Below, piece after piece: positions 51,909 to 58,409 of a stretch of DNA of 64,000 bases. The stretch is from Bacillus spizizenii TU-B-10. GTDB lineage: Bacteria > Bacillota > Bacilli > Bacillales > Bacillaceae. The stretch is from contig NC_016047.1 in NCBI RefSeq assembly GCF_000227465.1, forward strand, positions 3,142,857 to 3,206,856, written 5' to 3'. Each line of letters begins with the position of its first letter. The first letter of the stretch is position 1. The notes under the pieces were generated by a model, which worked only from the letters and a program-made list of their open reading frames with translations, ran no database searches and was not told the DNA's origin. The position numbers were made by a program, and so were the translations under genes.

Positions 51909-52553
51909 TTAAAGTACACCGTCTGATTTCGCAATCAAAACCGCTTCCGTCCGGGAACCGACATTCAGCTTATTGAAAATCGATGTCAGGCTGTATTCAA
52001 TGGACCGCTTGCTTAAATGAAGTGCATCTGCGATTTCTTGGTTTGTAAATCCCTTTTCAACTTCTTGAAGAATCAGGCATTCTCTAGGTGTGAGCACATC
52101 TTGTTCTTTTTGAGAGGAAGGAGCCGGCTTTGTTTTTTGCTGAGTCATCAGCTGTTTAAAGTAAGCAAAATCGACTAAAATTTCTCCATTGAGTACGTGG
52201 TATATGTATTGGGTGATCTTTTCTTTAGATTCCGTTTTGCTGATGGCACCGTGCAGTCCCGCACGAATCGCTTCCTCAAAATAATCCTCAACCTCATAAC
52301 CGGTATACACGATAATTTTACAATGAGGATTCTCTTGTAATATCTGTTTAGAAAGCTCCATCCCATTGACCTCGCCGCCTAAATTCAGATCCATTAAAAT
52401 GAGATCATATGACGAGAAATCATGCTGCTTGATAAACTGTTCGCTCGGTTCAGGACTGAGACAATCAACAGACAGATTCGAATCCGTTTCCAAAATTGTC
52501 TTGGTGCCTTCCATGACAGCCGGATGGTCATCAATCACTAGTATCTTTTTCAT
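51909..52553 (-). CDS. comA: ComA, competence response regulator
   Basis: A 214-residue NarL/FixJ-type regulator. The receiver has Asp8-Asp9, the phosphorylated Asp55 in LILMDLNLGG and Lys107 (AISKTESKE). The C-terminal LuxR-type helix-turn-helix (about 145-210) reads LTPRECLILQEVEKGFTNQEIADAL. Phosphorylated by ComP, it activates srfA, degQ and others. The ATG at 52551-52553 follows GGGAGGAAAAC; a start seven codons earlier overlaps this site. A hairpin separates it from comP. Confidence 0.95.
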   Translation of the reverse strand: MKKILVIDDHPAVMEGTKTILETDSNLSVDCLSPEPSEQFIKQHDFSSYDLILMDLNLGGEVNGMELSKQILQENPHCKIIVYTGYEVEDYFEEAIRAGLHGAISKTESKEKITQYIYHVLNGEILVDFAYFKQLMTQQKTKPAPSSQKEQDVLTPRECLILQEVEKGFTNQEIADALHLSKRSIEYSLTSIFNKLNVGSRTEAVLIAKSDGVL

Positions 52554-52587
52554 GTTTTCCTCCCTTTTACTCACTCATTTCCATTTT

Positions 52588-52633: not shown

Positions 52634-54946
52634 TTACAATTCGATTTCAATATCAGCCTTAAAGCCCTTTCCTTCACTTGTTTCAATCCGAAGGCGTCCA
52701 TCTAAAGCCCTGACTCTCTCCTTAATGCCAGAAAGCCCCATACTCATGGAATGTTCATTATTTTTTTCTTGATCAAACCCTACGCCATCGTCCTCATAAT
52801 GAAGAACGATTTTGTTTTGAATACTGATGAGCATAATCAGCACATCCGTCACCTGGGAGTGCTTGACCGCATTAGACAGAAACTCTTGAATGATCCGGTA
52901 CAAATTCAACTGCGAATCCAGATCAAGCGAAGCCGTAAATCTGCCGGTATTTAAACGGATATGAAACGGAACCCGCTCCTGCTGCTGCGCCACCAGCTTG
53001 GACAGCGCCTTCACCAGCCCAAGATCATACAGAAGCTGCGGCCGCAGCTCATGACACGTCTCCCTCGTCATCGAAATCACATCAGACATCTGCTCATTCA
53101 TCTGTACAAGCTTGTCCTGTACCTCTTCCTGACACGGATTATTATCCTTCTTAAAATCAGCCAAAAACAGCTCACACTGGCGCTTTAATGAAATCAAATC
53201 CTGAAGAACAGAATCGTGGAGATCGCGGGCGAGATCAGAACGTTGTTTTTCTTCGATCGTGTACATGAGTTTTTTGAGCCAGACGGGGTTTGATTCTTGT
53301 TGTTTTAAATCCTCAAGATGCATCATCAATTCTTCAATTTTCATGACGTTTTCCAATGAAACACTTGTATAGAACGCTAATGTTTGAAGCCAAGCAATTT
53401 CATCTCTTGTTAATTTAAAAGTATTATAACTTGAGAAACAGAGTACTAAAAATGATCTGTCTCCTCGTTCACCTATTTTAATAATAAAACCTTGTTTAAA
53501 CTCTTTAATTTTACCGATATCACCAGAAAATTTTTTCACATATTGCTCATGATTTTTATAAGTCATATCTTTAAAGTTGTTCTTACTAAGGAGGGTGATT
53601 TCCCCTTTAGAATTATCATACACGCAAGCATTATCTATGTTTAATACTTCTAGGATTGTATTTTTAAAGTGATTAAGTACTTGATCTACCGATGATGCTT
53701 GCTTAATTAACTGAGTAAATTTAAAAATTCCATCTTGATAATTAAATTTCTCTGTAAATCTTTTCAACTTGAAACGAAAATCAATGATTTCTTTAAAGTA
53801 AAAGACAGCAAACATAAGCAAATATATTACAACTGTTAGTTTAACGGAGTAAAAGTTATCTTCTGGTTTTTGAATGTAATTAAATATGGTGACCACAATA
53901 ACAGTAGGAGTAATGGCTAAAAATCCATAGTACTTAAGCCGTCCTACAACAAAGTCAATATTATAAAGTCTATTTGTCATAAATTGATACACTAAAGAAA
54001 AAGGTATAACAAGGGTAAAAGCTGCCAAACTAAAGGGTGAAAGATACTTATCAAACAACACATAGGGAATAACAAAAAAGATAATAAAGGGACTAAAAGA
54101 CAGGATATTTATATAAGCAAGGATTTTTAAAATTGACTTTTGCTCATTTTGTTTGATTTTTCTAATCCCTTGATGGATAAGAATACATACAGTAAGGACT
54201 AGGACAAAAAAGGAAATCAAGTTCAAGTTAGACAAAAAAGCCGAAGAATTTAATCTATTACTCAAAACAGCTTCTAGTAACAGGTTTACGAGTGGAAGTA
54301 TATACATAATGATTAAAATCTTCTTTTTGAATAACTTAGTGCCCAATTCCGCAAAGTATTTATATATGAAATGTATATATAAAATTGGACAACTTACTAA
54401 AGTAAGGACAAGCAGGTAAGTGCTGACCTCTTCACCTCTTCTTGCCCCGCAGGCACTTACATATGCTACTGATACAAATAACAAAAATAAGATTAAAACA
54501 AAAGCAGAAGGTGATTTTCTTACTTTATTTATTCTGTAAACAAAAAATATACAAAATAAACAGATTGAATAAGATATGAGTGGAATGAGATACATAAATA
54601 AATTTTCTTCACTTATTAGGCTTACATTTTGTAAATGAAATGATTTATTATCTCTCTCAACAGTTAAGCTTTCTACGTTGACCAATCTTCCGCTTTCTAA
54701 CTGGATTTCGCTTCCCTTTTGCCCATTAACTTCAAGAATGATGTCACCCTTTTTTACACCTGAATAATATTCATCTGTATAATCCACAACTTTGGTAACC
54801 TCTAACTTACCCTGTTCATTAATCTTCACATCCGCACCTACAAAGATATTAAAAACAGAAATATAAGAGAGGTAGATAACATAAACAAAACTTAAAATAA
54901 TAAAAGCTAGAGACAAATATTTATAGAAGTTATTATTTCTGTGCAT
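52634..54946 (-). CDS. comP: ComP, histidine kinase receptor for the ComX pheromone
   Basis: A 770-residue sensor kinase. The N-terminal half has many membrane segments. A short PDZ-like extracytoplasmic domain (about 38-105: VKKGDIILEVNGQKGSEI) lies between helix 1 and the rest. Then comes a cytoplasmic GAF-like region, and a HisKA_3/HATPase kinase with His577 in ARDLHDSVLQD and EDDGVGFD. The 5' two thirds is clearly more AT-rich than the kinase end, as expected for the pherotype-specific receptor part. It starts 15 bp after comX. Confidence 0.93.
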   Translation of the reverse strand: MHRNNNFYKYLSLAFIILSFVYVIYLSYISVFNIFVGADVKINEQGKLEVTKVVDYTDEYYSGVKKGDIILEVNGQKGSEIQLESGRLVNVESLTVERDNKSFHLQNVSLISEENLFMYLIPLISYSICLFCIFFVYRINKVRKSPSAFVLILFLLFVSVAYVSACGARRGEEVSTYLLVLTLVSCPILYIHFIYKYFAELGTKLFKKKILIIMYILPLVNLLLEAVLSNRLNSSAFLSNLNLISFFVLVLTVCILIHQGIRKIKQNEQKSILKILAYINILSFSPFIIFFVIPYVLFDKYLSPFSLAAFTLVIPFSLVYQFMTNRLYNIDFVVGRLKYYGFLAITPTVIVVTIFNYIQKPEDNFYSVKLTVVIYLLMFAVFYFKEIIDFRFKLKRFTEKFNYQDGIFKFTQLIKQASSVDQVLNHFKNTILEVLNIDNACVYDNSKGEITLLSKNNFKDMTYKNHEQYVKKFSGDIGKIKEFKQGFIIKIGERGDRSFLVLCFSSYNTFKLTRDEIAWLQTLAFYTSVSLENVMKIEELMMHLEDLKQQESNPVWLKKLMYTIEEKQRSDLARDLHDSVLQDLISLKRQCELFLADFKKDNNPCQEEVQDKLVQMNEQMSDVISMTRETCHELRPQLLYDLGLVKALSKLVAQQQERVPFHIRLNTGRFTASLDLDSQLNLYRIIQEFLSNAVKHSQVTDVLIMLISIQNKIVLHYEDDGVGFDQEKNNEHSMSMGLSGIKERVRALDGRLRIETSEGKGFKADIEIEL

Positions 54947-54961
54947 CTCATCATCCCATAA

Positions 54962-55183
54962 TTAAATAAAACTTTTTCTTTTATCATCCTCAAAAAAACT
55001 ACTGATAGTTTCTATTGGGGGCCAATTGCTTGTTCTCGGTGCCTCTCCTTCTTCAAACGCATATAATATTGCTTTCTTTTCTTTTTCATTTATATTTAGC
55101 AAGGTTAAGTTCCCATTCTTAAATTGATCAAAAGCTTCCGGATTGTTTACTAGATGGCTTATGATTTTATCGATATGTTTCAA
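54962..55183 (-). CDS. comX: ComX, pre-pheromone of the competence quorum-sensing system
   Basis: A 73-residue precursor. The N-terminal part resembles other ComX proteins (MKHIDKIISHLVNNPEAFDQ), whereas the C-terminal signal region is variable. Here the only tryptophan is Trp54 in TSNWPPIETI, 19 residues before the C-terminus. In most ComX types the modified Trp is within about four residues of the end. The natto-type pheromone KWPPIE, farnesylated on an internal Trp, is the closest match I know. The mature signal is inferred to be NWPPIE (53-58) or a close variant. The start overlaps the comQ stop (ATGA). Confidence 0.9.
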   Translation of the reverse strand: MKHIDKIISHLVNNPEAFDQFKNGNLTLLNINEKEKKAILYAFEEGEAPRTSNWPPIETISSFFEDDKRKSFI

Positions 55184-56049
55184 TTTATATTCCCCCTTAA
55201 TAATTGATCAAGTAGTTTATTCTTTCTTTGTTCATCTAATCTCAGTTTTTTGAATGATTCTTTAAAATTTTCCAGTGCTATATTTTTAATAACATTCAAA
55301 TATTGGATTACACCTGATTCTTGTAACTTCTTTTTCAATCCATCCATATTATTTATCTGATTATTTTCTTGCGCATAAAAATTTAATAAGTCAATCGATG
55401 ATTGGTTATATTTATTTTTTAGATAGTAGAAGGCAAGATTGTGTCTAGTTTTTATGTCATTATTGTCAGGATAATATAGCCCATGGTGATCATTCGCAAT
55501 TTGCTCGACTATGCCCAAATAACGTGAATACTCCTCGACTGTTTCATTAAATTCTCCAGTTGCCAAATATACACCAAGAACACTAGGCAATGTTACAAGA
55601 GAACCTGACTTAAGTTTAATCATTTCAATATACTCTGATTCTGAAGAGACTGTTACATTTAAATCTGCATGTTGCCCTTGTAAAGATTGAAGTGAATATT
55701 GTAAAGTAAGACTTAAAAGTTTTGGATTATTCGAGACTGAACTTATCACTTGCAGACTCAATGTATAAAGTGCAGTTGCTGCGTTAATCACTATCGAAGG
55801 ATCTATTTTCATCCAAGAAGCCTGAAGATTGTCCTTATCCTCAATATCGTCAAAAATGTCAGCAGATAAAATTAAAAGTTCTATACCAGAAGCCAACAAC
55901 TCAATTGCTGTAACATCTTTTCCGTCAAATGCTATGTAATGGTGATAAGCTAATTCTGCAAATGAAAATTGTTTTTTTTCTTCAATAAAAGATATAAGTT
56001 TTGTTTTTAAGTCTTCATTTAAAATATTTTCATCTACAATCTCCTTCAT
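55180..56049 (-). CDS. comQ: ComQ, isoprenyl transferase that modifies ComX
   Basis: A polyprenyl-synthase-like protein of 289 residues from the ATG at 56047-56049. The aspartate-rich motif is DIFDDIEDKD (near residue 75); a second acidic stretch is weaker. It attaches an isoprenoid to the Trp of ComX and helps export. The frame stays open upstream to an ATG at 56133 (317 residues). AAGGAG is only about 3 bp before the chosen ATG, while GGGAGGGGGG lies upstream of an in-frame ATT, so the true start is uncertain. The gene is AT-rich and highly divergent between strains. Confidence 0.88.
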   Translation of the reverse strand: MKEIVDENILNEDLKTKLISFIEEKKQFSFAELAYHHYIAFDGKDVTAIELLASGIELLILSADIFDDIEDKDNLQASWMKIDPSIVINAATALYTLSLQVISSVSNNPKLLSLTLQYSLQSLQGQHADLNVTVSSESEYIEMIKLKSGSLVTLPSVLGVYLATGEFNETVEEYSRYLGIVEQIANDHHGLYYPDNNDIKTRHNLAFYYLKNKYNQSSIDLLNFYAQENNQINNMDGLKKKLQESGVIQYLNVIKNIALENFKESFKKLRLDEQRKNKLLDQLLRGNIN

Positions 56050-56205
56050 TTTCTCCTTGATTCGGACAGAATCTAAACATATCTGCTCAATAACGACTTC
56101 CCCCCTCCCATTCCATTTTACTAAATGGGACATTTAAAGGACAGCAGGTTTTTCGTTTTTTAACAATCATATAATACTTTATCCTTTTATTGTATGGGAA
56201 GAACG

Positions 56206-56233: not shown

Positions 56234-56374
56234 TCACGAAATTTTCATTGCGTAATTGTATTTATCGAGCTGATCAATGCTTTTGTTAATGTTTCGTAAT
56301 GAATCTGTCGTTTCTTTAATATCAAGTTCGAGTCGGAATAACAATTGTTTTACTTCTTCAAGTTTCTTTTCCAT
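56234..56374 (-). CDS. degQ: DegQ, small activator of DegS-DegU signalling
   Basis: A 46-residue peptide starting MEKKLEEVKQLLFRLELDI and ending KYNYAMKIS, strongly helical and heptad-like. It stimulates phosphotransfer from DegS to DegU and so raises exoenzyme and polyglutamate production. The ATG at 56372-56374 follows AAGGAGTGTGGAAACG. Expression is driven by ComA through an upstream box. It is read from the same strand as comQ and separated from it by a terminator. Confidence 0.95.
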   Translation of the reverse strand: MEKKLEEVKQLLFRLELDIKETTDSLRNINKSIDQLDKYNYAMKIS

Positions 56375-56453
56375 CGTTTCCACACTCCTTTTTTTGAAAG
56401 ATCAATGAATTGTGTATGGTGAACGAGTCCTAGGTATTTGATCTGTTACTAAT

Positions 56454-56835: not shown

Positions 56836-57204
56836 ATGAGTTATCGTTATCCTTGGTTTTACGCCTATCCGTATGAGATTCGCCGCCCTCCAGCTTCTCC
56901 TGCCAATCCAGATGTCTTTATCCGTTCAGCGAGGGAGGCGTCAGGGCTGTTCGCCGATGCCCAGCTTGTTCTCAGTCGCATTGCGGGCTCGCGGGAGCTC
57001 TCGCACCGCATTCTGACCGCAGCCGAGCAGTCAGACAAACAATCTGTAAAGCGCCTAATCAAACAAATGGGCGTACGGCATGAAGTGGATACGGTCTTTA
57101 ATCCCGACGGCATCTACATCACCCTCATCGGGACGCAAAGCCGAATGATTCTTGCTTTGCGGTGGTCAGAGGACCGCAATCATTTTGCGTCCATCAGATT
57201 ATGA
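56836..57204 (+). CDS. yuzC: YuzC, uncharacterised protein
   Basis: A 122-residue protein beginning MSYRYPWFYAYPYEIRRPP, a Tyr/Pro-rich N-terminus followed by a helical, basic middle (LSHRILTAAEQSDKQSVKRLIKQMG) and a beta-rich end. The composition would suit a spore or surface-associated protein, but that is only a guess. The ATG follows GTGTGAGGTGCTCCC. Its last 25 bp overlap the 3' end of the convergent pdeH. Confidence 0.8.
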   Translation: MSYRYPWFYAYPYEIRRPPASPANPDVFIRSAREASGLFADAQLVLSRIAGSRELSHRILTAAEQSDKQSVKRLIKQMGVRHEVDTVFNPDGIYITLIGTQSRMILALRWSEDRNHFASIRL

Positions 57205-58409
57205 CACCACTCCAGAGCTTCAAGGTAACATTCATACGCTTCTTCTTTATCCAGTTCTTTGCCTAATTCTGTGCAAGTGTCCCAGTTGTTGCTTTCAATT
57301 AATTTCACAAGCTCAAGCATTTGGTAATAGTCGTTTTGATGGCCTAATAACGCTTGCCCGACTTCATCTTTTAAAGGCAATTCTTGAATAATCTCCTCTA
57401 TTTCTCGGTGCAGCAGGGTGTCTATGAGAGAAAACATTCCGATCAGCATATAAGACGCAGGCTGCGGCCGGGCTGTTTTTCTCGCCAGCAGCTCACAAAG
57501 CTTTGCTCTCATCAAAGAAATCTTAATGATCTCGTGCTTGCTGGAATGCCCTTTTCTGCTTAAATCCTTAAAGGAAAGAATGTATATCCATCGTTTGATT
57601 TCATTAAACCCAAGCAGCATAATGGCCTGTTGAATACTTTCAATTTTCTGGCTCAAACGGCTGTGGGATGAGTTTAAAAATTTTAGGATTTGATAGGACA
57701 GTGATAAATCCCGCTCTATGTATTCGGTCACACGCTTTATGTTAGGCTGTTCTTTGCTCAATTCGTTAAGCAGTTCATAGTAAGAATAGAAATGAGTCGA
57801 CAGATCATGCCCGCTGATGATGCGCGGTTCGCTGAAAAAGTAGCCCTGGAATAATTGAAAGCCGTCTTGTGCCGCTTGTTTATATTCTTTTCGGGTCTCT
57901 ACTTTTTCCGCTAAAAAAATCAAGCCTCTGCAGCCGTAGGTTTGCAAAATTTTTCTGCGTTCCATTCGTGTTGTTTTGAGAAAATCAATTTTCAATATAT
58001 CAATATAGCTCATGAGCTTTTCCAATAAGCCTTCATTTTGCGGGTTTATTGCATAAAAATCATCAAGTGCCAGCATATACCCCATTTTTTTCAGCTCTTT
58101 GCATCTTGAGATGAGGGCCGGCGTGATCGGTATATCTTCAAGGATTTCAATGACAAGCTGTTTCGGATTGAAGGAGGTAGGAAGGTTCGAAAACATCAGG
58201 CTTTCCGTAAAATTAACAAAACAGCGTTTCCCTTCCGTCAGCTTCTCAATTCCGATGTTTAAAAAGCTGTTGATTACTAAATCTGTTGTTGCCTGATCGC
58301 CGTCTTTCGCGCTATATACATTCTCTTCGCTTTCTCTATACAGCAGTTCATAAGCAACAACCTGTTCTTTTCTATTAAAAATAGGCTGTCTTGCAACAAA
58401 CACCCTCAT
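57180..58409 (-). CDS. pdeH: PdeH (YuxH), cyclic di-GMP phosphodiesterase with EAL and HDOD domains
   Basis: A 409-residue protein with an N-terminal EAL domain (about 1-200) and a C-terminal HDOD domain (about 205-400). The EAL signature is ELL in YELLYR, and the downstream catalytic DD is present in LALDDF. In B. subtilis PdeH (formerly YuxH) is the phosphodiesterase that degrades c-di-GMP, so it favours motility. Despite the ELL variant the family member is active. The start follows AAGGGGGATAAATCA. It converges on yuzC with a 25-bp overlap. Confidence 0.87.
   Translation of the reverse strand: MRVFVARQPIFNRKEQVVAYELLYRESEENVYSAKDGDQATTDLVINSFLNIGIEKLTEGKRCFVNFTESLMFSNLPTSFNPKQLVIEILEDIPITPALISRCKELKKMGYMLALDDFYAINPQNEGLLEKLMSYIDILKIDFLKTTRMERRKILQTYGCRGLIFLAEKVETRKEYKQAAQDGFQLFQGYFFSEPRIISGHDLSTHFYSYYELLNELSKEQPNIKRVTEYIERDLSLSYQILKFLNSSHSRLSQKIESIQQAIMLLGFNEIKRWIYILSFKDLSRKGHSSKHEIIKISLMRAKLCELLARKTARPQPASYMLIGMFSLIDTLLHREIEEIIQELPLKDEVGQALLGHQNDYYQMLELVKLIESNNWDTCTELGKELDKEEAYECYLEALEWCHNLMDAK

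Follow-up and report, generated by a model that had tools for sequence, protein, structure and literature searches.

The window analysed here, a stretch of 64,000 nucleotides from Bacillus spizizenii TU-B-10, contains a complete comQXPA operon (Table 1). The genes comQ, comX, comP and comA are adjacent, lie on one strand in the order Q-X-P-A and are all complete. The end of comQ overlaps comX by 4 bases, and 15 nt lie between the comX stop and the comP start. Directly upstream of comQ, a small ORF (56234-56383, minus strand) has a sequence that we take to resemble DegQ. To isoprenylate tryptophan, a ComQ needs DDxxD as its first motif and, as its pseudo second motif, NDxxx or GDxxx (PMC5331326); both are present in the window ComQ, as DDIED and NDHHG.

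Table 1. Genes of the comQXPA operon and predicted parts of the ComX precursor (positions in the window)
Feature	Position	Strand	Basis
comX, pheromone precursor of 73 aa, one Trp (residue 54), TTG start codon	54962..55183	-	ORF call and PF05952
ComX leader, residues 1-52, removal expected	55028..55183	-	Boundary by analogy with ComXnatto 53-58 (PMC5331326)
Predicted mature core NWPPIE, residues 53-58, farnesylation of Trp54 expected	55010..55027	-	Analogy with ComXnatto (PMC5331326)
C-terminal tail TISSFFEDDKRKSFI, residues 59-73, removal expected	54965..55009	-	Analogy with ComXnatto (PMC5331326)
comQ, tryptophan isoprenyltransferase; DDIED first Asp-rich motif, NDHHG pseudo second motif	55180..56133	-	PF00348, E 2.8e-17
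comP, sensor histidine kinase, 770 aa, N-terminal half variable	52634..54946	-	HisKA_3, HATPase_c
comA, conserved response regulator (221 aa as called)	51909..52574	-	Response_reg, GerE

The comX product matches PF05952 (E 6.8e-10, 39.1 bits, above the family cut-off of 25), and this is the one match across the whole genome of 4,207,222 bases. The ORF translation and the PF05952 match bear out the first-pass annotation, which had placed the sole Trp of the protein at the internal residue 54, in the context SNWPPIE; 15 residues follow the core, and the C-terminal part of the protein is TSNWPPIETISSFFEDDKRKSFI. ComXnatto has 73 residues, carries a farnesyl group on Trp54 (20th from the C-terminal end) and gives a pheromone formed by residues 53-58 (PMC5331326, the review through which the primary work, Hayashi 2015 and Okada 2015, is cited here). 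Both ends of ComXnatto are processed; the review describes the order of farnesylation and trimming as unclear and names no protease for the processing (PMC5331326). With 73 residues, a Trp54 and a 15-residue tail past residue 58, the window ComX has the natto-type geometry, and its earlier description as natto-like therefore holds.

The locus is best read, with a probability of about 0.88, as a natto-type comQXP pherotype cassette that releases a hexapeptide, NWPPIE, farnesylated on Trp54 and able to activate the matching ComP. By analogy with ComXnatto, ComQ would farnesylate the precursor at its internal Trp54, the leader and the tail would be cut away, and the modified hexapeptide would be released and secreted. 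NWPPIE would subsequently activate the matching ComP, which would phosphorylate ComA. The proposal that cuts are needed on both sides of the signal fits the geometry of ComXnatto. In vitro, the RO-E-2 ComQ accepts only a Trp placed 2-4 residues from the C-terminal end (PMC5331326). Since the Trp of the window ComX is the 20th from this end, or the 5th once trimmed, the window ComQ must work differently. The natto system shows that a ComQ is able to serve an internal-Trp ComX (PMC5331326). On this analogy, a natto-type ComQ must either accept a Trp inside the chain or work on the trimmed precursor, in which the Trp is still 5th from the end; which of the two steps, trimming or farnesylation, precedes the other is a question already raised in the literature (PMC5331326).

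The position of the Trp was compared in genome sets containing one genome per species. The PF05952 profile matched 42 of 44 genomes of the genus at E 0.01, 75 of 80 genomes of the family (the 44 of the genus included) and, at E 0.001, 52 of 397 genomes drawn from the order, a sample that overlaps the other sets. The 118 listed ComX places, from 113 genomes, were read to the stop codon; 9 of them score below the family cut-off. In 112 of the 118, the distance of the last Trp from the C-terminal end is 1-7 residues. It is 20 in four, each with a precursor of 73 aa, and two places have no Trp at all. Outside the natto-type clade, no internal Trp was found among the 118 places. Viral contigs were also searched and held no relative of the window ComX. 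A scan of named contigs with exact short patterns of the window ComX matched 2 loci and missed the K-type allele described below.

The same survey contains ComX of other kinds. The two Trp-less ComX-like ORFs belong to the order sample (L126 in G155 and L128 in G110) and may be false matches, degenerate copies or carriers of another signal. Four ComX (L009, L091, L015 and L025, from G010, G017, G028 and G012) have two Trp near the C-terminal end, 2-3 and 8-12 residues away, and it is not obvious which of the two is modified. Some genomes of a further genus in the family have more than one ComX place, with two or three that differ from each other (L054-L056, L070-L072 and L074 in G065, G061 and G055).

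The core of the natto ComX is KWPPIE, with a lysine at residue 53. NWPPIE is found in three of the four natto-type genomes, namely the window genome, Bacillus sp. N13C7 (G033) and the B. tequilensis type strain, KCTC 13622 (G038), and KWPPIE in the remaining one (G036). Codon 53 is AAT in the window and AAG in G036, and the replacement of Lys by Asn pointed out in the first-pass annotation is thus confirmed against the one K-type allele. The comparison of comX alleles that it had proposed shows that NWPPIE also occurs in other genomes. The letter strings NWPPIE and KWPPIE were not found in the literature searched. The annotation had also taken natto as the one known exception to a C-terminal Trp. 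The geometry is indeed that of ComXnatto, but the available part of PMC4008528 has listed a C-terminal ComX extension since 2014 for five strains: natto, TU-B-10 itself, BSn5 and two B. atrophaeus strains. A fifth ComX with such an extension was not seen among the 118 places, even though this partial text lists the B. atrophaeus strains (PMC4008528). The internal-Trp arrangement is already published, and what the window contributes is a natto-type allele of the N variant.

The relationships of the alleles were followed in the neighbouring genes. A ComQ tree was built from the 42 genus genomes that have ComX, less G017 (41 genomes, with no record named natto among them). In this tree, the four natto-type ComQ form one clade (100/100, stem 0.54), and the three that accompany NWPPIE form a subclade within it (97/89). 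Relative to the window, dS in the first 400 codons of comP is 0.083 and 0.088 for the other N-types (G033 and G038) versus 0.480 for the K-type. The corresponding values for G033, G038 and G036 are 0.178, 0.158 and 0.279 in the rest of comP, 0.083, 0.149 and 0.267 in comQ, and 0.137, 0.199 and 0.233 in comX. The flanking pncB and the gene at 57180-58409 give 0.228-0.274 for the three genomes alike. The protein identity of the ComP N-terminal half to the window is 98.8% and 97.8% in the N-types versus 89.0% in the K-type; this protein comparison sets aside the faulty G003 comP row and G033 comQ length. Over the four 500-base steps of 53501-55500, DNA identity to the window is 95-99% for the N-types, 88-91% for the K-type and 51-58% for G035, a genome of another pherotype. 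The flanks of G035 align with the window at 92-93% DNA identity, and 53816-55804 (the comP N-half end, comX and most of comQ) has no DNA match to it.

The simplest reading of these values is that the split between N and K within the natto type predates the divergence of the flanks of these genomes, and that the N-type cassette was probably exchanged later between species. The old split rests on comP, because the dS of the K-type comQ and comX is near the flank level. Low dS alone is no proof of exchange, because it is also low in comA (0.075-0.183). In a comparison of one K allele with three N alleles, with one genome per species, Asn53 appears to mark a natto-type subgroup in three genomes, whose ComQ and ComP sensor half have diverged from those of one K-type.

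Within ComX, WPPIE and the length of 73 aa are invariant in the four natto-type alleles, and N53K is the only replacement in the core. A hand count of distinct changes among these alleles gives 14 synonymous and 4 replacing changes in the leader and core, versus 1 synonymous and 3 replacing in the tail. The sequence comparison leans towards a weaker constraint on the tail, although the difference is not significant (Fisher p 0.077). An origin of the tail by read-through of the comX-comP spacer was considered and is not supported: the best z was 2.5 in 31 tries, and 20 of 500 shuffles scored as high. The spacer alignment ran from the Trp codon to comP and drew on 31 of the 38 genus genomes whose ComX is not of the natto type; G008, G015, G017, G025, G027, G028 and G040 were left aside, and the spacer lengths of G013, G019, G029 and G034 were set by hand to the aligned comP Met.

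Several other explanations bear on this precursor. The mature signal might retain its tail, as the C-terminal fragments of other ComX do; the peptide would then be longer, and its modified Trp would lie inside it. The near-terminal Trp of most ComX places agrees with this, as does the preservation of the tail, in frame and length, in all four natto-type alleles. On the other hand, the ComXnatto pheromone ends at residue 58 and lacks the tail (PMC5331326), and the share of replacing changes (3/4 in the tail, 4/18 elsewhere) goes, short of significance, in the direction of a discarded part. Retention of the tail is considered highly improbable. A decaying allele from which no working signal is made is scarcely credible. 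The TTG start of comX could be taken as its mark, but this start is common to the other three natto-type alleles and to eleven other members of the genus. Furthermore, all four genes are complete, the ComX protein is identical to that of G033 despite 5 synonymous changes in the gene, and dN/dS is below 0.3 for comQ and both comP halves against the three natto-type relatives.

The removal of the tail within the natto-type cassette allows more than one agent. The first-pass annotation held that an unknown protease must remove it, which was overstated, since tail removal is itself drawn from natto and ordinary peptidases could suffice. General peptidases might trim the tail down to a resistant farnesylated Trp-Pro-Pro block, with no need for a dedicated enzyme. 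Such trimming opposes only the claim of a special protease and leaves the natto-type identification as it is. WPPIE, invariant in the four alleles, fits a protease-resistant stop, and the operon holds only Q, X, P and A, as covered by the protein-domain scan of its genes. A statement on the expression of comQ plus comX in the accessible part of PMC4008528 points the same way, with the natto allele not said there to be included. The exact end at residue 58, however, suggests some specificity. Ordinary peptidases are a fair alternative to a dedicated enzyme, at slightly less than even odds.

The natto-type cassette may come in two forms. NWPPIE and KWPPIE could represent diverged sub-pherotypes of the natto group, each with a co-evolved ComP sensor half, the N-type cassette having moved between Bacillus species by recombination. 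Taken as a whole this proposal is tentative, and somewhat more likely to fail than to hold. According to the sections available of PMC4408185, six isolates of the RS-D-2/NAF4 pherotype included only three that strongly induced the NAF4 tester, the comQ of this cluster forms two subclusters about 85% identical, and NAF4 appears in the strain list as a B. subtilis natto strain. The K and N alleles may be these two subclusters. If true, the sub-pherotypes would explain the published split in the response of the NAF4 tester as given in that portion of the paper (PMC4408185). Correlated divergence of ComQ, ComX and ComP is reported, and pherotype trends common to natto and B. spizizenii are mentioned, in the part available of a 2026 paper (PMC13432125). 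The window contributes a multi-species allele to the ComX type in which an internal tryptophan is reportedly prenylated by a bacterial enzyme. The natural K/N pair offers a means to probe what sets the specificity between pheromone and receptor.

Several known systems are close to the window locus. The ComX of Bacillus sp. N13C7 (L044) is identical to that of the window, NWPPIE included. The one of B. tequilensis KCTC 13622 (L045) has the same length and core and is identical in 69 of 73 residues, the differences being two leader and two tail residues. ComXnatto shares the 73 aa, the Trp54, the core at residues 53-58 and the comQXPA cluster, and differs in having Lys53, as G036 also does, instead of the Asn53 of the window. 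The C-terminal pherotypes (168, RO-E-2 and others) have in common with the window the ComX family leader, the ComQ motifs and the operon order, whereas their last Trp belongs to the 112 of 118 that lie 1-7 residues from the end. Against G035, whose ComX core is ADPITRQWGD, the identity falls to 47.5% for ComQ and 37.4% for the N-terminal half of ComP.
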